Notes under the pieces: model-generated | What the model was told of the DNA's origin: nothing | The model's database searches: none | What the model saw: only the letters and a program-made list of their open reading frames with translations | Program-made: the position numbers and the translations under genes | In this document: positions 15,030 to 22,613 of the stretch, one piece after another | Position numbering within the stretch: the stretch's first letter is position 1 | Layout: every line of letters begins with the position of its first letter | IMG/VR virus record: IMGVR_UViG_3300042465_003163 | Location: 1-25,564 of that record | DNA length: 25,564 nt | DNA from: a virus | Reading direction: 5' to 3' (one strand)

Positions 15030-15422
15030 ATGGATAAAAATAGTTTAGAAAAAATAATGTTTGGCTTAGTCAGTCATGGTATTAAAAAAGTTGTAGTACA
15101 TTATGAAGGTGGTGGAGATAGTGGAGCAATTGAATATGTTAATGCTACTCAAGATCCATATATAGATTATGATGAATTAGAAAATTGGGATCAAGAATAC
15201 TTATTAAATGATATTGATAGTGGATTAAGTACTTTAATTGAAGATTACTGTCAAGAGATGTTATTAAATGATATAGAAGACTGGTGGAATAATGAAGGTG
15301 GCCGTGGTTATGTTCATATTGATGTAGAACTTGGTACATATACAATTAATAATAGTATCAGAATTGCTGATTGGGAAGAATATACTCATGAAGGTAGTTT
15401 AAAAGATAAAAATAAAAAATAA
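15030..15422 (+). CDS. DUF6878-like protein, tandem paralogue A
   Basis: A 130-residue acidic protein: a helix (SLEKIMFGLVSHGI), strand VVVHYEGGGDSGAIEYV, helical region LIEDYCQEMLLNDIEDWW, then GGRGYVHIDVELGTYTINN and a HEGSL end. The GDSGAIE element and the Asp/Glu-Trp-rich middle recall an uncharacterised family I know as DUF6878 (tentative). It is followed 5 nt later by a clear paralogue, so this looks like a tandem duplication. Function unknown. Confidence 0.75.
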   Translation: MDKNSLEKIMFGLVSHGIKKVVVHYEGGGDSGAIEYVNATQDPYIDYDELENWDQEYLLNDIDSGLSTLIEDYCQEMLLNDIEDWWNNEGGRGYVHIDVELGTYTINNSIRIADWEEYTHEGSLKDKNKK

Positions 15423-15427
15423 TAACT

Positions 15428-15742
15428 ATGGAAGAATTAAAAATGACAAGCCTCTTACTTAAATTGGCTGACCGTGGTATTACAGGTATTAAAGTACAAT
15501 ATAATGGTGAAGGAGACTCAGGTGCTATAGACTGGATTGGTTATACAAATGAGCCTTGTGCAAGTACAGCAGATGTATTTAATAATATTGATGCTTGGGA
15601 CAATAATAATAATGCTTTAGAAGATAAAGAATTATATGACTCAATTGAAGATTTTGCACAATCTAAAATTCTTGATGATATAGAAGATTGGAGAACTGAT
15701 GAAGGTGGTTTTGGTAACTTATGTATACTTGTTCCTTCATGA
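15428..15742 (+). CDS. DUF6878-like protein, tandem paralogue B, truncated by TGA
   Basis: A 104-residue protein that aligns with the preceding gene over its whole length: GEGDSGAIDWIGY matches GGGDSGAIEYVNA, SKILDDIEDW matches EMLLNDIEDW, DEGGFGN matches NEGGRGY. It stops at a TGA (15740-15742) at the position of a glycine in paralogue A. The frame then continues in register with the paralogue for 28 codons, to a TAA at 15827-15829. One base change, GGA to TGA, explains this. The shortened protein lacks the final strand, so it may be inactive or an assembly or population variant. Confidence 0.65.
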   Translation: MEELKMTSLLLKLADRGITGIKVQYNGEGDSGAIDWIGYTNEPCASTADVFNNIDAWDNNNNALEDKELYDSIEDFAQSKILDDIEDWRTDEGGFGNLCILVPS

Positions 15743-17495: not shown

Positions 17496-17903
17496 ATGGA
17501 AAAAGTAGTACTGAATAGAGAAAGTGTTGAAAGTATATATGAAATGTATAATTCTCCTGATAAAGAGAATCATGTTGTTGCAAATGAAATACTAAATAAT
17601 TGTGATATTGATGCATCTGAAGGATGGTTAATTATATTTTATGGTATGAGTTTAAAAAGTGATGATTATTGGTTAGAAAATATGCCTAATGTTTTTGTTA
17701 GAGTCCGTGAATTAGGTATTCAAAGTGATCATAAGTTAAGTGCAGCACAACTTGTTAATGCTTTAATTGTTGCAAAAGTAGAACCTGGGATTATGGATTA
17801 CTATTTAGAAATTCATGTTGAAGATTTAAAAAGAGCAATGTCAAACTGGGGTTATCCAGTTAATAAATTAAATTACTCAATAACATTAAAAAATGAAGAG
17901 TAG
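17496..17903 (+). CDS. Uncharacterised protein sharing a domain with the 417-residue protein downstream
   Basis: A 135-residue helical protein. Residues about 13-52 (SIYEMYNSPDKENHVVANEI, then LNNCDI...GWLIIFYGMS) align with residues about 229-268 of the protein at 20369-21622 (SLCEMFNSSDTDNHTMAMEI, then MANSNF...YLSLLFYSYS), and later helices appear related. I do not know the family. It overlaps the VWA-zincin gene by 11 nt, implying coupled translation and perhaps a shared complex. It might be a substrate or adaptor of the AAA+/VWA pair. Confidence 0.75.
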   Translation: MEKVVLNRESVESIYEMYNSPDKENHVVANEILNNCDIDASEGWLIIFYGMSLKSDDYWLENMPNVFVRVRELGIQSDHKLSAAQLVNALIVAKVEPGIMDYYLEIHVEDLKRAMSNWGYPVNKLNYSITLKNEE

Positions 17904-19083
17904 AGAAGATAGTTTAGCAAAAACCAGTAAAGACTTGATGTTAAAAGAGCCCTATTATGGGTTCTTTTTAATCATGTTAAATAAAGTATGGAATAATAAA
18001 ATAGTTCCTACTGCTGGTGTAAGTAAAAATAATATTAATTATCAACTTACAATTAATGAAGATTTCTGGACAAGTTTATCTGAGGATCATAGATTAGGTT
18101 TACTTAAGCATGAGTTACTTCATATAGCTTTTGGTCATCTTACTATGTATTTTAAGTTTAGTGATAAAAAACTGGCTAATATAGCTATGGATATGGAGAT
18201 TAATCAGTATATTTCAGATGAATTACTACCAGAAGGTGGTATTAATATTGATGATTATCCTGATTTAAATCTTGATAGAAAAGCAGGTTGTAGATATTAT
18301 TATGATAAACTACAACAGGCTAAAGAAGATAAAGACAAAAATGGCACAAGTGGTGATGATAATTTTGATAAGTTAGCTGATCAAATGGATGCTGGAGATG
18401 AAATGGCCAGTGATCATCCTACTTGGGCTGATTTTGAAGATATGACTGAAGCTGAGCAAAAGCTAATTGAGAAACAATTAAATAAAATTCTTAATGATGC
18501 TAAGGAGATGACTGAAAAGAAAAGAGGTAATATCCCTGGAGAAATTGAGGGTTTACTTGAAATGGAAGAAATTAAGCCTGCTAAATTTGATTGGAGAGGA
18601 TATATCAGAAGATTTACTGGTGTATCATCTAAAGTGTATACTAAAAAGATAAGGAGAAAAGAGAATAAAAGATATTCTGAGAATCCTGGTCTTAAGATTA
18701 AAATGAAACAACACATGTTGTTGGCTATTGATACTTCAGGATCAGTATGTGATCAAGAGTTACATGAATTTATGAATGAAATATTACACATCTATAAACA
18801 AGGTGTTGATATTACCATAGTACAATGTGATACTGCTATCAAAAGCATAGAACCTTATAAAGGTAAAAATGAAATTGAGATATATGGAAGAGGTGGGACA
18901 GAATTTGATCCCGTCCTTGAATATTATAATGAGAATATAAGAAAATATACTAGCTTAGTGTATTTTACTGACGGTGAGTGTTATACTAATGTAAAGCCAA
19001 AAGCTCCTATATTGTGGGTGCTGTCTGAGCAATCTTATATGAACACGGAACTTCCCGGAAAAGTTATTAAGTTAGAAATTTAA
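17893..19083 (+). CDS. VWA-domain zincin (DUF2201-type), partner of MoxR-like ATPase
   Basis: A 396-residue protein with two domains. The N-terminal metallopeptidase-like domain has KHELLHIAFGHL (H73, E74, H77, with H82) and NIAMDMEIN, as in the DUF2201 N-terminal zincin. A charged linker (about 145-200) follows. The C-terminal von Willebrand A domain has a MIDAS DTSGS (280-284), GRGGTEF and a FTDGE strand. Such proteins are encoded with MoxR AAA+ ATPases in bacteria, and the next gene is one. The start overlaps the previous gene by 11 nt, and the family-like residues begin soon after it. A terminator-like hairpin lies in codons 18-26. Confidence 0.9.
   Translation: MKSREDSLAKTSKDLMLKEPYYGFFLIMLNKVWNNKIVPTAGVSKNNINYQLTINEDFWTSLSEDHRLGLLKHELLHIAFGHLTMYFKFSDKKLANIAMDMEINQYISDELLPEGGINIDDYPDLNLDRKAGCRYYYDKLQQAKEDKDKNGTSGDDNFDKLADQMDAGDEMASDHPTWADFEDMTEAEQKLIEKQLNKILNDAKEMTEKKRGNIPGEIEGLLEMEEIKPAKFDWRGYIRRFTGVSSKVYTKKIRRKENKRYSENPGLKIKMKQHMLLAIDTSGSVCDQELHEFMNEILHIYKQGVDITIVQCDTAIKSIEPYKGKNEIEIYGRGGTEFDPVLEYYNENIRKYTSLVYFTDGECYTNVKPKAPILWVLSEQSYMNTELPGKVIKLEI
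17943..17969 (+). promoter_or_regulatory. Terminator-like hairpin inside the VWA gene 5' end
   Basis: AAAAGAGCCC pairs with GGGTTCTTTT (10 bp, one G-T wobble) around TATTAT, and the right arm runs into TTTTT. It starts 50 nt after the start codon. It encodes LKEPYYGFFL, so it may be a by-product of codon choice. Confidence 0.4.
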
Positions 19084-19096
19084 AAAATTAAAAAAG

Positions 19097-20272
19097 ATGA
19101 GTCAAGTTCAATTAAATGTAGAAGAATTAAAAGGGTTTTTAAAACACATAGTTGGTAATAATCAATACATCCAAGCTGAAGGTAAAGTACCTGTTGCAAT
19201 AAATGTAGAAGGTGATGCAGGTCTTGGAAAGACTTCAGCTGTTAAGCAATTAGCAATTGAAATGGGTATGAATATTATTAAATTAAATCTTTCACAGATT
19301 GAAGAGTTAGGTGATTTAATTGGTTTTCCATTTAAAGAATTTGAGATGGTTAGAGAAGATGGTGCTACTAAATGGGTTCAAGAATCTTTAATGGAAACTT
19401 ATATTAAGAATAGATATAAACCTACTAATAGTAGTAGAATGTCACATGCTGCTCCAGAATGGATACAAGGGCAAGGTGAAGGTGGTTTCTTGATTTTAGA
19501 TGATTATACTAGAGCTGATCATAGATTTATGCAAGCAACTATGGAGCTTATTGATCAGCAAGAATATATTTCTTGGAAATTGCCAAAGAACTGGCACATA
19601 ATATTAACTTCAAATCCAGACAATGGAGATTATAATGTAACTGCATTAGATGTAGCTCAAAAGACTAGATTTATCTCAGTTGAAATTAAATTTGATATTA
19701 ATGTATGGGCTAAGTGGGCTGAGCAAGTAGGAATTGATGGTAGATGTATCAATTTTATGTTGATGAATCCAGAAGTAGTAACTCAAAAAGTTAATCCAAG
19801 AGCTATTACTACTTTCTTTAATGCTATTAGTTCTATTGAGAAGTTTGAAGAACAGTTACCGTTAATTCAAATGATTGGAGAAGGTTCAGTAGGACCTGAA
19901 TTCTCTAGTATGTTCACTATGTTTATTAATAACAAGATGGATAAAATTATATCTCCAGCTGATATTATGACTAATGTAAATGAAGCATATGTAGTTGGAG
20001 CATTAAATGGAGCAATAGGTACTGGAGATGAATTTAGAGCTGATATCAGTAGTATTATTACTACAAGACTTATAAATTATTCATTGACACATGCAGCTAA
20101 TCATTCTATAAGTGATGCTATGATAAACAGATTAGTAAAACTTACTACAGACTGTGACGCATTCACTAATGATCTTAAATACTATTTAGTGAAAGAGTTA
20201 CTAGCAGGCAATAAACCAAAATTTTCCAAGCTCATGATGAATCCACAAGTAGTGAAGATGGCTGTCAAATAG
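19097..20272 (+). CDS. MoxR-type AAA+ ATPase
   Basis: A 391-residue protein. Walker A is GDAGLGKTS (residues 39-47); Walker B is FLILDDYTRAD with D135 and D136, an aspartate where most AAA+ proteins have glutamate; sensor 1 is LTSNPDN. KTRF supplies a likely arginine finger, and the rest is a helical lid plus a C-terminal extension (about 270-391). The layout fits MoxR/dynein-related AAA+ ATPases that remodel targets with VWA partners, and the VWA-zincin gene ends 13 nt upstream. A terminator follows at 20330. Confidence 0.88.
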   Translation: MSQVQLNVEELKGFLKHIVGNNQYIQAEGKVPVAINVEGDAGLGKTSAVKQLAIEMGMNIIKLNLSQIEELGDLIGFPFKEFEMVREDGATKWVQESLMETYIKNRYKPTNSSRMSHAAPEWIQGQGEGGFLILDDYTRADHRFMQATMELIDQQEYISWKLPKNWHIILTSNPDNGDYNVTALDVAQKTRFISVEIKFDINVWAKWAEQVGIDGRCINFMLMNPEVVTQKVNPRAITTFFNAISSIEKFEEQLPLIQMIGEGSVGPEFSSMFTMFINNKMDKIISPADIMTNVNEAYVVGALNGAIGTGDEFRADISSIITTRLINYSLTHAANHSISDAMINRLVKLTTDCDAFTNDLKYYLVKELLAGNKPKFSKLMMNPQVVKMAVK

Positions 20273-20329
20273 TAAAAGCATAAAACTGTTTCCCATAAAA
20301 AGGAGCATAAACACAATTAAAACAAATAT

Positions 20330-20355
20330 AAAGCGGTGTAAAAGCCGCTTTTTTT
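20330..20355 (+). terminator. Rho-independent terminator
   Basis: An 8-bp stem (AAAGCGGT with GCCGCTTT, closed by a T-G wobble) around GTAAAA runs into a tract of seven T. It closes the AAA+ ATPase gene and lies 14 nt before the next start. The 57 nt between the ATPase stop and the stem contain no gene; an AAGGAG at 20310-20315 has no start codon behind it. Confidence 0.9.
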
Positions 20356-20368
20356 AAAATTAAATTAT

Positions 20369-21622
20369 ATGAAAGAGACATTATTTATAGAGATGGAGAT
20401 TGCAAATGGTGATTGGTATGATAATCATGATATAAACTCTTTATCTTTTAGGTTTGATATAGATACTAAAATATGTGATTTTGATAATGTGAATGATAAT
20501 AAAATATTTAACACAGTATCAACAGGTTATATACCTACATTAAATGATAAATTATATTTTGCAAAAGGAGTTAATATTCCAAGAGTAAAACTTAAAAATC
20601 TTGCAAAAGATTACAAAATTAAATCTACTACTAATTTAACAGATGCATCAGCAATTTTTGTTTCAGAAAATAGTAATTCAAAATACACAACTTGTCAATG
20701 GACATATACTGTTGATACTGTTGAGTTTAAACAATATTTTGAAAATTATTTAGCTTTAAACTTAGGTGATGATTATTATAATCAAAAAGTAATAGATGCA
20801 TTAGAATTTTATACTGAAGAATCAATTGGAGTTTCATATAATACAAGAGGTTTTCTTGAAAGTTCACATATTCCATTTAGATTAACATCTGGTACTAGTT
20901 ATTCTTCTAAAAGATATAATAAAATACAAGATGAATATCTTAGTGCTTATAATGAAATAAATAATTCAACTCTACCAGTATATGATGAATCAGAATTACT
21001 AAAACACCTTAATGGAAATGAGGCATTAGGTATTGATTCTGATATGTATGATAGCTTGTGTGAAATGTTTAATAGTTCTGATACTGATAATCACACAATG
21101 GCTATGGAAATCATGGCTAATTCAAATTTTGAAGACAGTGTGTTATATCTTAGTTTACTATTTTATTCATACTCTGGTCAAATGCAGCAATGTAGAAGTA
21201 AAGGACATGTAAATTTTAAATCATTATTATCTCTAATGACATTACCAAGTTCATATTTTAGAATGAATATTGATGATGTTATGGATAAACTGAAAAAGCA
21301 TAAACAATTAACTAAAGAAAATGTTGACATAGTGCTAAAGCTCCACGGGGATGATATAACTGATGGAGGTAATTCTTTATATTTTAGAGTAAAAACTATT
21401 ACTTTATGTACTGAATATCTTGAAGTTATGGATTTTAATTATACTTTTGTAGTGCAAGAAGATTTTGTTGCATCATCCCCAGAAATTGAATTACCTGATT
21501 TAGAAGAAGAAGCAGTTGTTGCATCTATTGCAACAGAACCTGAAAAGATAGATAAAGTCTTAATTGACTTTGATAATGTGAATCTAGAATTAAAAACAAA
21601 CACTGATGGCTATTTCTTATAA
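20369..21622 (+). CDS. Large uncharacterised protein, shared domain with 17496-17903
   Basis: A 417-residue acidic protein I do not recognise. Residues 1-200 look like a mixed alpha/beta domain, with SSHIPFRLTSGTSYSSKRYN marking a loop. Residues about 225-330 are helical and related to the protein upstream of the VWA gene. A glutamate/valine-rich stretch (about 365-395) leads to a C-terminal tail. DFDNVN occurs at both ends (38-43 and 400-405), from an identical 15-nt stretch of DNA. The start is 12-14 nt after a terminator; its 3' end overlaps the nuclease gene by 17 nt. Confidence 0.8.
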   Translation: MKETLFIEMEIANGDWYDNHDINSLSFRFDIDTKICDFDNVNDNKIFNTVSTGYIPTLNDKLYFAKGVNIPRVKLKNLAKDYKIKSTTNLTDASAIFVSENSNSKYTTCQWTYTVDTVEFKQYFENYLALNLGDDYYNQKVIDALEFYTEESIGVSYNTRGFLESSHIPFRLTSGTSYSSKRYNKIQDEYLSAYNEINNSTLPVYDESELLKHLNGNEALGIDSDMYDSLCEMFNSSDTDNHTMAMEIMANSNFEDSVLYLSLLFYSYSGQMQQCRSKGHVNFKSLLSLMTLPSSYFRMNIDDVMDKLKKHKQLTKENVDIVLKLHGDDITDGGNSLYFRVKTITLCTEYLEVMDFNYTFVVQEDFVASSPEIELPDLEEEAVVASIATEPEKIDKVLIDFDNVNLELKTNTDGYFL

Positions 21623-22613
21623 TGAAGAATTAAATCAATTTTATAATAGTGACTTTTATTTTAGTTACTCAAGTATTAATAAGCTGCTGTATTCACCGGC
21701 AGCTTTTTATAGACACTATATCTTAAATCAAAGAGAAGATATGGTTGATGCTCATTTAGTAGCAGGGAAAGTAGTACATTGTTTACTACTTGAACCAAAG
21801 AATTTTGATAAAGAATTCATAGTAATACCTGGTAATCTTCCAAAAGATAACAACAGGTTATTAGTAGATGAAGTCTTTAAGGTTTATCAATCACAACCTG
21901 ATACTGATTTAACATTAACTGATTTCTCTGATTCAATAATTGATGTACTTGCAGGTATTAACTTGTATCAGTCATTAAAAAATGATGAAGGTAGAATTGC
22001 AAAAATGACAACTGAACAGAATATGCAGTACTTTGAATTTTTAAAAGTAAAGCAAGGTAAAACTATTGTGGATCAAACCACACTAGACACAGCAAAAGAA
22101 TCTGTAGAGTTATTAAGAAAGCATCCAATTGTGAGTGAGTTGATGCAACTTAATGGTGATATAGATGAGAATGTTAAGATCTTTAATGAAGAAGGTGTAC
22201 AGATAAAATCAAGTAAGTATAAATTTGGTTTTAAAGGTATCTTAGATAATGTAGTCATGGACTATAATACTAAGACTTTATTTATTAATGACTTAAAAAC
22301 AACTGGTAAACCTATTCAGGATTTTCCAGACTCAGTGCAATATTATAAATATTGGATACAGGCCGTCATGTATAAACAGTTGAGTTTGGGTAAATATCTT
22401 AAAGGTTTACCTGATATGGCTGAATGGAAAATTGTTATTACTTTTATTGTGATTGATAAAGCTAATTTAATTTATCCTTTTCAAGTATCAACAGAAACAT
22501 TAAAGGTGTGGGAAGAAAATTTTAAAGAGATATTGACAGTTGTAGACTATCATTATACTAATAAGGATTTTACTCTTCCATATCAATTAGCAACCGGTAA
22601 TGTAAAACTATAA
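21606..22613 (+). CDS. PD-(D/E)XK exonuclease (DUF3799/RecE/Cas4-like)
   Basis: A 335-residue protein. The N-terminal SYSSINKLLYSPAAFYRHY is the S-x-L-x-x-SPA-type start of phage RecE/Cas4-like nucleases; AGKVVHCLLLEP (H58) supplies the conserved histidine. The catalytic core is GILDNVV (D214) and FINDLKTT (D229, K231), followed by QYYKYWIQAVMY with the Q-x-x-x-Y motif (Q252, Y256). There are no cysteines for the iron-sulfur cluster of Cas4. It probably makes 3' overhangs for annealing by the Sak4-like protein. The start overlaps the previous gene by 17 nt. Confidence 0.9.
   Translation: MAISYNEELNQFYNSDFYFSYSSINKLLYSPAAFYRHYILNQREDMVDAHLVAGKVVHCLLLEPKNFDKEFIVIPGNLPKDNNRLLVDEVFKVYQSQPDTDLTLTDFSDSIIDVLAGINLYQSLKNDEGRIAKMTTEQNMQYFEFLKVKQGKTIVDQTTLDTAKESVELLRKHPIVSELMQLNGDIDENVKIFNEEGVQIKSSKYKFGFKGILDNVVMDYNTKTLFINDLKTTGKPIQDFPDSVQYYKYWIQAVMYKQLSLGKYLKGLPDMAEWKIVITFIVIDKANLIYPFQVSTETLKVWEENFKEILTVVDYHYTNKDFTLPYQLATGNVKL
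21681..21708 (+). promoter_or_regulatory. Terminator-like hairpin inside the nuclease gene 5' end
   Basis: AAGCTGCTG pairs with CGGCAGCTT (9 bp, one T-G wobble) around a 7-nt loop, followed by a run of five T. It lies 75 nt after the start codon and inside the SPAAF-coding region, so it could be incidental. Confidence 0.4.

Follow-up and report, generated by a model that had tools for sequence, protein, structure and literature searches.

An AAA+/VWA gene pair in uncultured aquatic phages is flanked by two proteins that share a helical domain

In Midasin (Rea1), an AAA+ protein, the MIDAS takes hold of an acidic residue within a domain common to two substrates: it is bound by E114 of Rsa4-UBL and by E80 of Ytm1-UBL (PMC6624252). 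In a related account, the sixth ligand of the MIDAS is an acidic residue of the target, and the MIDAS of NorD is required for an active target (PMC9976466). As described there, NorQ-NorD, RavA-ViaA, and CbbQ-CbbO are two-gene MoxR-VWA remodelers, and it is by this description that we liken them to the phage pair considered here.

AAA/VWA pairs are already known from viruses, including gp24/gp25 of phage N4 and the pairs of jumbo phages. For N4-like phages, the list of 14 core genes includes gp24, entered as "Unknown," and gp25, entered as "vWFA domain" (PMC4193335). In group 2.2 jumbo phages, a MoxR-vWA pair with an N-terminal metallopeptidase was proposed to be a virion-assembly chaperone (PMC7824862). 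In the archaeal Acidianus two-tailed virus, tail assembly has been linked to a MoxR-vWA pair (a finding that PMC7159879 and PMC7824862 both cite); this pair, which we also compare by description, is without a peptidase domain (PMC7824862). The cited parts of these sources give no demonstrated target for the pair in bacteriophages (PMC4193335, PMC7824862).

We examined a stretch of 25,564 nucleotides from an uncultured virus (IMG/VR record IMGVR_UViG_3300042465_003163; "the window"). In this aquatic phage group, the genes for the ATPase and its metal-site partner are flanked by the genes for two proteins, p135 and p417. All four genes, and all of the features described below, are on the + strand. 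We know of no flanking pair of proteins with a shared domain, and no zincin domain in the VWA partner, in NorQ-NorD, RavA-ViaA, or CbbQ-CbbO.

The ATPase and the zincin-VWA protein

The zincin-VWA protein (396 amino acids; 17893-19083) is above the Pfam cutoffs for both DUF2201_N (58.7 bits; cutoff 23.2) and DUF2201 (62.1 bits; cutoff 26.4), and it matches phrog_1314 (E = 1.5e-64). With both domains and an HExxH motif, it belongs to the DUF2201 metallopeptidase-VWA family. The zinc-site motif is HELLH (residues 73-77, in the zincin domain; 18109-18123) and the core of the MIDAS is DTSGS (residues 280-284, in the VWA domain; 18730-18744), with T336 and D360 completing the DxSxS-T-D pattern. To count motifs, we used sequences of at least 380 amino acids from 80 loci, leaving out split, short, and truncated genes. 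The HExxH motif (H73, E74, and H77) and H82 are invariant in 65/65 VWA sequences, and the MIDAS residues (D280, S282, S284, T336, and D360) are intact in the same 65/65.

The ATPase (391 amino acids; 19097-20272) was recognized by profile and family matches. It matches phrog_1297, "ATPase" (E = 2.9e-34), and is under the Pfam cutoffs for AAA (19.8 bits; cutoff 21.2) and AAA_5 (17.4 bits; cutoff 22). The profile of its family has five matches in the PDB, all of them Midasin (E = 4e-9), which is the only PDB relative at E ≤ 0.1. (The VWA profile has no match in the PDB at E ≤ 1.) In 41/41 distinct AAA sequences, G39, G44, K45, and T46 of the Walker A motif (residues 39-46; 19211-19234) are invariant, and so are the Walker B, sensor 1, and arginine positions examined (D135, D136, N173, R191, and R235); the roles of N173, R191, and R235 are our own assignment. 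With its motifs intact and a sequence relation to Midasin and phrog_1297, the ATPase is probably of the MoxR clade; with a complete MIDAS in the VWA partner next to it, the two form a MoxR-VWA pair. The initial annotation had described adjacent MoxR-type ATPase and VWA-zincin genes, and both are where it placed them; their catalytic and metal-site motifs are intact.

Relatives of the VWA protein are present in 380 of 50,697 phage records (tblastn, E ≤ 0.001). N4 gp25 matches the VWA profile of the window's family (E = 8.9e-16) and gp24 matches the AAA profile (E = 1e-5), so both genes are homologous, but the order in N4 is AAA then VWA, while in the window phage it is VWA then AAA. Matches to the window's VWA protein also include several jumbo-size phages, such as PBECO4 (tblastn, E = 4e-11). 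As described, the jumbo-phage pair has the same two-gene plan as the window, with the zincin fused to the VWA domain (PMC7824862).

The shared helical domain of p135 and p417

p135 (17496-17903) has one copy of the shared helical domain, and its model has 7 helices. p417 (20369-21622) has an N-terminal part, a BRCT-like region, the shared helical domain, and a disordered tail. The similarity of the two proteins is significant by BLASTP (52 residues, 35% identity, E = 3e-7) and also when the two families are compared with hhalign (107 columns, E = 3.3e-10, probability 96.7), so it is not due to chance and it holds across relatives. The shared region is helical in both models (pLDDT 89.4 for p135 and 82.2 for p417). 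That the flanking proteins have a related helical domain, as first noticed in the window, was thus borne out.

The joining of a BRCT-like region to the shared helical domain in p417 is new. This region (residues 56-216, of which about 70-80 align; 20534-21016) aligns to 7scy_K in VIA-align (Z = 6.3, rmsd 3.3, 78 aligned), and "BRCT" is in the title of 16 of the 50 rows listed in the fold search, although Z below 8 can reflect a common arrangement. Pfam's BRCT model hits only 1/39 members of the p417 family (E = 0.077). p417 also has four BFVD matches (E ≤ 0.001) that span almost its full length. Each is an uncharacterized phage protein, with 9-17% identity and a query TM-score of only 0.32-0.40; one (A0A8S5QMV2) is from the crAss-like ctYsL76, and the contig ctz6O13 accounts for two (A0A8S5TL70 and A0A8S5TKB2).

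The window's p135 and p417 have no match in Pfam, NCBIfam, or PADLOC (the latter at E ≤ 0.01); in PHROGs, p417 has one weak row (E = 0.094) and p135 has none. We rejected assigning them to known families, as scans of individual members gave scattered and weak hits, with no family common to many members. (The best rows were E = 0.0045 for 1/39 members in Pfam, and E = 0.0026 for 1/39 and E = 0.0089 for 1/57 in PHROGs.) Searching the 50,697 phage records with tblastn gave no match to p135 or p417 at E ≤ 1 and none to the consensus of the p417 domain at E ≤ 5. In the PDB fold search with p135, nothing was below E = 2, and the VIA-align hits (Z ≤ 4.7) were ARM/HEAT-like arrangements.

As its core, the shared domain has a helical hairpin of about 35 residues, of the type EExxNLxxMLxSxDxxN. 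In p135 it is at 17508-17615, with D22 as the acid, and in p417 it is at 21029-21139, with D238. We observed that this core, which the initial annotation did not describe, is also present on further small proteins that these phages encode. The p135 profile finds 19 extra copies (E ≤ 0.001) in 15 of the 20 long records, and further copies are in 7 of 16 portal-selected contigs from outside the set that was used to build the hairpin profile. Two kinds of extra hairpin protein are encoded shortly before the terminase gene. Hairpin proteins of 83 and 111 amino acids are present in record G002, a relative of the window phage. The flanking proteins had been proposed as the partners of the pair; because the core is also on further phage proteins, the set of partners is probably wider than p135 and p417.

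The residue at the turn of the hairpin is acidic in all of the copies examined that include the position. In p135, there are 116 D and 4 E among 122 distinct sequences (two of the four E calls depend on a gapped alignment), and the other 2 are fragments that lack the site. It is D in 95/95 p417 sequences and, from the listing, in 19/19 of the other proteins. Our hairpin alignment (A5), in which D is invariant, includes p135 representatives numbering 14 of the 19. Among the five that it omits, E or a gapped E stands at this place in two, so the p135 family as a whole does not have an invariant D. (L248, which is nearly identical to L245, was excluded from the hairpin set.) Since the acid is directly before helix 2 in the p135 model, it may be only a helix cap.

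Gene order and the phages that carry the locus

The initial annotation suggested a four-part module whose first gene is translationally coupled to the VWA gene. The end of p135 and the start of the VWA gene overlap by 11 nt (17893-17903), which suggests that the two might be coupled. In 199/209 loci, the VWA frame could start before p135 ends; this is an upper bound because the earliest ATG, GTG, or TTG was taken as the start.

The four genes do co-occur in a fixed order in related phages. Across 222 overlapping viral loci, the order was kept wherever the flank suffices: p135-VWA in 195/195, VWA-AAA in 155/155 (with an inserted ORF between them in some), and AAA-p417 in 151/151. Two divergent phages (L382 and L383), at 52-55% VWA identity, have the same four-gene order. 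(In L383, the hairpin profile misses the counterparts of p135 and p417 at E ≤ 0.05.) The gene downstream of p417 is just as constant: a PD-(D/E)XK exonuclease (21606-22613), with a 17-nt overlap, is 3' of p417 in 148/148 loci. We regard it as a neighbor and make no claim that it belongs to the machine. Within the family, gene order from primase to PolB is also kept, as strictly as that of the four genes. Because these neighboring replication genes are equally kept, the four-gene order is not specific to a module, and we rejected synteny within the family as proof of a closed one.

The phage that carries these genes is, judging by three proteins of a relative, related to Crassvirales; we mean a relation and not a formal placement. 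In this relative (G002, which is not the window fragment), the major head protein, portal, and terminase are homologous to those of phi14:2 (E = 2e-8, 1e-27, and 4e-8, respectively). Relatives of the portal include records without a Crassvirales classification. In the ten portal-related reference records that we searched, VWA, p135, and p417 are absent and there is no hairpin at E ≤ 0.01 (there is one match of 14 residues, with E = 0.0155).

Other phages have the pair without these proteins. Of seven other phage records searched, six have the VWA protein and none has the hairpin. Profile searches of N4 found no match to p135, p417, or the hairpin, and the cited description of the jumbo-phage pair does not mention hairpin-domain partners (PMC7824862). 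Because such phages exist, p135, p417, and the hairpin are not general cofactors of the AAA/VWA pair.

The kept order of the primase-to-PolB block raises another explanation: in this phage group, the hairpin could serve generally for self-association or as a structural element, unrelated to AAA/VWA, and p135 and p417 would be neighbors of the pair by way of a frozen replication block. Helical hairpins commonly pair with one another, and this one is also on proteins that are encoded far from the pair. But the ten records without VWA have no hairpin either, p135 is 5' of the VWA gene in all 195 loci, and its counterpart is kept where VWA identity is just 52-55%. We consider this explanation unlikely, though it is the most serious alternative. 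(The evidence against it could still reflect the shared descent of one clade.)

A possible remodeling machine and its alternatives

Our preferred reading, held tentatively and by analogy, is that the locus encodes a phage MoxR-VWA remodeler, similar to Midasin or NorQD, with the hairpin-domain proteins as its own ligands. The AAA+ protein would form an ATP-driven ring, and the zincin-VWA protein would be the ring's partner for gripping substrates. p135 and p417 would be ligands or adaptors that dock through the shared helical domain, and the acidic residue at the hairpin's turn would be a ligand of the MIDAS, as in Midasin/Rea1. The BRCT-like region of p417 might extend the grip to nucleic-acid complexes. 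Other hairpin proteins, some of which are encoded shortly before the terminase gene, would be clients, which the machine would strip away or rearrange in replication, packaging, or virion assembly. The initial annotation had named a replication or RNA-polymerase assembly of the phage, or a host enzyme, as possible targets, while virion assembly is what was proposed for the jumbo-phage pair (PMC7824862). Rea1 differs in that it is a single giant chain and its ligand domain is ubiquitin-like, while the predicted ligand in the window phage is a helical hairpin. Should the MIDAS indeed use the hairpin as its handle, the Midasin principle (one grip, several clients) would extend to viruses.

A bolder version, which we think doubtful, is that the SxD hairpin is a portable client tag of about 35 residues on five kinds of protein in these phages. 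Its acidic turn would dock to the MIDAS of the VWA protein, and a single AAA+ motor could thereby strip or rearrange both replication and packaging factors. If true, this would be a viral counterpart to Midasin's gripping of UBL-bearing assembly factors. In any case, because the likely partners adjoin the pair and share a domain whose core marks other phage proteins, a pair of "function unknown" becomes testable: the candidate substrates are few, and mutation can be aimed at one residue.

Alternatively, the VWA protein could be an active metallopeptidase that is fed by the AAA+ ring, with the hairpin proteins being cut or degraded, as in the maturation of virion precursors. The invariance of HExxH and H82 is consistent with this, as is the proposal by Iyer et al. 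of virion assembly plus peptidolytic processing for the jumbo-phage pair (PMC7824862). Yet invariant zinc ligands may be structural too, we identified no cleavage site or substrate, and most MoxR-VWA systems, as described, assemble or remodel their targets, with one (YebA-coupled) called likely peptide-degrading (PMC7159879, PMC9976466). We consider a peptidase of this kind improbable.

Conservation bears on a third alternative. Among 11 proteins measured, the VWA and AAA proteins are among the most conserved (median identities of 73% and 72%; PolB has 66%), and p417 (39%) and p135 (25%), which evolve fast outside the hairpin, are the least. This could fit a set that acts in conflicts with the host or mobile elements, with p135 and p417 as fast-evolving sensors or effectors, and several bacterial conflict systems do consist of MoxR-vWA and a third protein (PMC7159879). 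We consider this very improbable, as the pair shows the conservation of a core gene and is listed as core in N4-like phages (PMC4193335), and we found no effector domain and no PADLOC match at E ≤ 0.01. Third components of the ternary systems (VMAP, iSTAND, FtsH, or beta-propeller) were not seen in p135 or p417 with Pfam or PADLOC, which are general models and not dedicated profiles.

The pair also resembles NorQ/NorD and CbbQ/CbbO in kind (PMC9976466). Nevertheless, a chaperone that inserts a metal cofactor into a phage or host enzyme, as NorQD does for nitric oxide reductase, is scarcely credible here, given that the genes beside the pair are for replication or of unknown function, with no metalloenzyme recognized. 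Nor, to our knowledge, do NorD and ViaA include a zincin domain.

Is there a cellular counterpart of p417? DUF2201_N is in 60 of the 235 genomes of the phylum Myxococcota that we searched. In 3 of 41 Myxococcota neighborhoods (40 plus L384), an LRR protein of one family is encoded near the VWA gene, and the AAA gene was called in two of these three as well. In L384, part of the LRR protein resembles BRCT (Pfam E = 0.023, under the cutoff), and hhalign against p417 was non-significant for both this protein alone (E = 0.19) and the four ORFs (E = 0.59). Five cellular segments that were picked by eye matched the phage hairpins with E = 0.0022 but a probability of 12.8% (score 16.2; none of 50 column shuffles scored above 9.8). 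Used as a profile, these segments recover four hairpin proteins of phages (E = 0.025 to 0.22), but neither the ORFs of the window nor the main set of loci gives a match at E ≤ 1. In the reverse direction, the hairpin profile from the phages has no hit among the cellular ORFs at E ≤ 1 and none in the genome of L384. Because the segments were hand-picked, the cellular resemblance is only a lead. If the weak, non-significant resemblance to the Myxococcota LRR proteins is real, then the handle would be older than phages.

We dropped the ATPase matches labeled "Human faecal Bacteriophage sp." as phage relatives; by eye, the neighboring genes suggest a chromosomal location for at least three of the five. 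In two gut fragments (MT835935 and MT837836), an LRR_5 protein is encoded before the AAA/VWA pair.

Gene content, order, and conservation

In the window, an IMG/VR virus record of 25,564 bases, the four genes lie on the same strand: p135 (17496-17903), the zincin-VWA gene (17893-19083), the MoxR-like AAA+ gene (19097-20272), and p417 (20369-21622). Directly after p417 is a PD-(D/E)XK exonuclease (21606-22613), followed by p189, p128, and a DNA polymerase that matches phrog_1252. The zincin-VWA protein matches Pfam's DUF2201_N and DUF2201, both above cut-offs, and the VWA metal site (MIDAS) is intact in all 65 VWA sequences. The AAA protein has a weak match in Pfam and a clear match in PHROGs (phrog_1297, E = 2.9e-34). 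Among PDB chains, the only relatives of the AAA profile at E <= 0.1 were from Midasin (E = 4e-9), and the VWA profile had no relative at E <= 1. (PHROGs and many phage records label the zincin-VWA family, phrog_1314, as "HNH endonuclease"; N4 gp25 in RefSeq is L085:3165-4307. Because the window's member matches DUF2201_N and DUF2201, this label looks like a misannotation.) Elsewhere in the window, two adjoining small ORFs (15030-15422 and 15428-15742; 130 and 104 amino acids) have common relatives and look like paralogues; relatives carry either one or both.

We collected viral loci with the VWA protein (the best 80 of 590, with best-segment identities of 69-99%) and gathered further loci, among the matches listed, with the p417 and p135 alignments. 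The resulting 222 overlapping loci represent 124 distinct full-length VWA genes. Where the flank was sufficient, p135 always precedes VWA (195/195 loci), AAA always follows VWA (155/155), p417 always follows AAA (151/151), and the exonuclease always follows p417 (148/148). The initial annotation had proposed a four-gene module, and the order is indeed kept in every testable locus. But the order from primase to PolB is kept equally well, which counts against the four genes being special as a module.

Sequence conservation differs within the set. Considering loci whose VWA is under 80% identical, and alignments that span over 70% of the query, the median identities to the window are 74% for p113 (n=147), 73% for VWA (n=159), 72% for AAA (n=136), 66% for PolB (n=57), 52% for the exonuclease (n=100), 51% for the primase (n=115), 39% for p417 (n=117), and 25% for p135 (n=151). 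The VWA/AAA machine is therefore conserved and the flanking proteins are fast-changing.

Some relatives have interrupted genes. Group I introns (Rfam RF00028) break the AAA gene at L144:4756-5048 (76.7 bits) and L196:10473-10902 (72 bits); the gathering score was reached in two of nine relatives scanned. In other relatives, AAA or VWA is split at several sites by inserts of 0.9-1.5 kb, most with an ORF of 235-284 amino acids, and by eye, some of these ORFs resemble GIY-YIG or LAGLIDADG homing endonucleases. Also, nine loci (L010, L125, L147, L184, L186-L189, and L218), some of which come from a common contig, have an ORF of 268-270 amino acids inserted in opposite orientation after p135 and before VWA.

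When we scanned contigs of bacterial genomes with the VWA alignment, we found five loci. Two of these, L382 and L383, are phage contigs within one Campylobacteraceae bin, with VWA identities of 52% and 55%. (Both contain a primase, and L383 also contains the exonuclease and p189.) Each has a p135 counterpart (E = 1.8e-5 and 0.0049), VWA, AAA, and then two proteins at p417's position. The second protein matches the p417 profile (7e-16 and 1e-20). The match of the first is only weak: E = 3e-4 for L382, and for L383 an hhalign E of 0.0011 with a probability of 19.8. So the order outlasts large divergence, and the flanking genes are kept there as well. At least two contigs of this MAG (CAKZOX010000053.1 for L382 and CAKZOX010000136.1 for L383) are relatives of this phage, which is either binning contamination or a hint about the host.

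The shared hairpin and its acidic turn

The proposal that both flanking proteins contain a related helical domain was confirmed: p135 and p417 match each other singly (BLASTP, 35% identity over 52 residues, E = 3e-7) and at family level over 107 columns (E = 3.3e-10). At the core of this domain is a helical hairpin, modeled in p135 as helices 8-19 and 23-35 and in p417 as helices 224-235 and 239-250, with a turn between them.

The hairpin is not limited to these two proteins. In 20 long family records, the p135 alignment gave 19 more matches at E <= 0.001 (in 15 records), mostly confined to its first 35-50 positions. At such places lie small proteins of three other kinds: 83-88 amino acids with the hairpin at the end, 99-112 with a C-terminal hairpin, and 133-194 with an internal one. 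In G002, a long relative, the first two kinds adjoin each other a few genes upstream of the terminase, next to two proteins of 276 and 128 amino acids, which by our reading are PD-(D/E)XK-like and HU/IHF-like, respectively. A hairpin profile, built partly from these same 20 records, found 2 to 5 copies in each at E <= 1e-9 (2 in the window). Its sole match in 17 reference records was 14 residues long (E = 0.0155). It matched the copies in L382 (1.1e-4 and 2.5e-8) and none in L383 at E <= 0.05.

Outside this sample, we selected 17 contigs of at least 30 kb by their portal (among 80 loci) and searched 16, omitting one used previously. Seven had the hairpin at E <= 0.01. VWA was present in the three longest; the rest are mostly fragments, where a missing match carries little weight. 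In one contig of 73 kb, hairpins occur without VWA.

In an alignment of 43 hairpins, M and D are invariant and S is present in at least 90%. Two of the five p135 representatives omitted from it have E at the D position, and the family as a whole therefore lacks an invariant D. Of 122 distinct p135 sequences, 116 have D at the turn and 4 have E (two of which depend on gapped alignment); the other 2 are fragments without that position. The turn residue is D in 95/95 p417 sequences and, as read from the listing, in 19/19 hairpins of other proteins. In L382 and L383, by-eye alignment places D or E at the turn of all four counterparts. Glutamate is a poor helix cap, which speaks for a functional acid, but the role of the residue may instead be structural.

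p135 and p417 as candidate ligands

VWA domains are reported to bind a metal at DxSxS-T-D, with the sixth ligand supplied by the target through an acidic residue, and the MIDAS of NorD to be required for an active target and dispensable for binding NorQ (PMC9976466). The MIDAS of Rea1/Midasin is described as gripping Rsa4 E114 and Ytm1 E80, both within UBL domains, and ATP hydrolysis as leading to their removal (PMC6624252). Like Rea1/Midasin, the phage set has a ring-type ATPase, an intact MIDAS, and two neighbors sharing a domain whose turn is always acidic.

The analysis establishes the components, how conserved they are, and the order in which they lie; given the matching parts, we propose that p135 and p417 would bind the machine as its ligands. 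The remaining hairpin proteins may be further clients. A bolder reading, in which the hairpin is a client tag, seems rather unlikely. A BRCT-like region in p417 (Z = 6.3 with an rmsd of 3.3 across 78 residues; a Z under 8 may reflect a common arrangement) could link the machine to nucleic-acid complexes; the machine's target is likewise inferred.

Phage affiliation and known pairs

G002's head protein, portal, and terminase match head-and-packaging families in PHROGs, and they match Cellulophaga phage phi14:2 (Crassvirales) at 2e-8 (major head protein), 1e-27, and 4e-8. phi14:2 is also matched by three further proteins from the window (the SNF2-type helicase, uracil-DNA glycosylase, and primase), and it has adjoining counterparts of the exonuclease (E = 1.2e-10) and p189 (7.7e-10). 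The four genes are absent from phi14:2 (best E = 0.07 for VWA, 0.17 for AAA, 0.023 for p135, and 0.11 for p417). Ten reference records picked among portal relatives (six classed as Crassvirales) gave nothing for VWA at E <= 0.01 and nothing for p417 or p135 at E <= 1; AAA was searched in phi14:2 only. Of seven other phage records, six, N4 among them, have VWA and none matched p417 or p135. The empty p417 and p135 searches in both groups had no positive control of their own, but the same alignments match 20/20 family records.

The AAA/VWA pair itself is already known in phages. N4 gp24/gp25 are described as core genes of N4-like phages (PMC4193335; PMC2784036), and Iyer et al. describe jumbo phages whose MoxR-vWA pair includes an N-terminal metallopeptidase, and propose a role in virion assembly (PMC7824862). 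Among the open-licence PMC papers listed as matches, none reported the module in crAss-like phages. As far as our searches go, three things are new: the VWA-AAA order, the pair of partners bearing the hairpin domain, and how widely the hairpin is spread. The set is a variant of the MoxR-VWA machine already known from phages, and its candidate partners are plausible and cheap to test.

Among annotated phages, the family's best portal match is Leptolyngbya phage Lbo-JY46 (L267, PP438436.1; 32.9% identity), whose listed host is cyanobacterial. To our knowledge, such a host is unusual for crAss-like phages. Lbo-JY46 has no VWA, p417, or p135 match, and six contigs picked by its nuclease (of 16 loci) have neither hairpin nor VWA. 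Three loci deposited as human faecal "Bacteriophage sp." (L228, L229, and L231; MT835935, MT838754, and MT837937) look, by eye and gene content, like fragments of bacterial chromosomes. Finally, a BFVD search with p417 found structural relatives in crAss-like virus ctYsL76 and two in contig ctz6O13, which recall the paired p417-like genes of L382 and L383.
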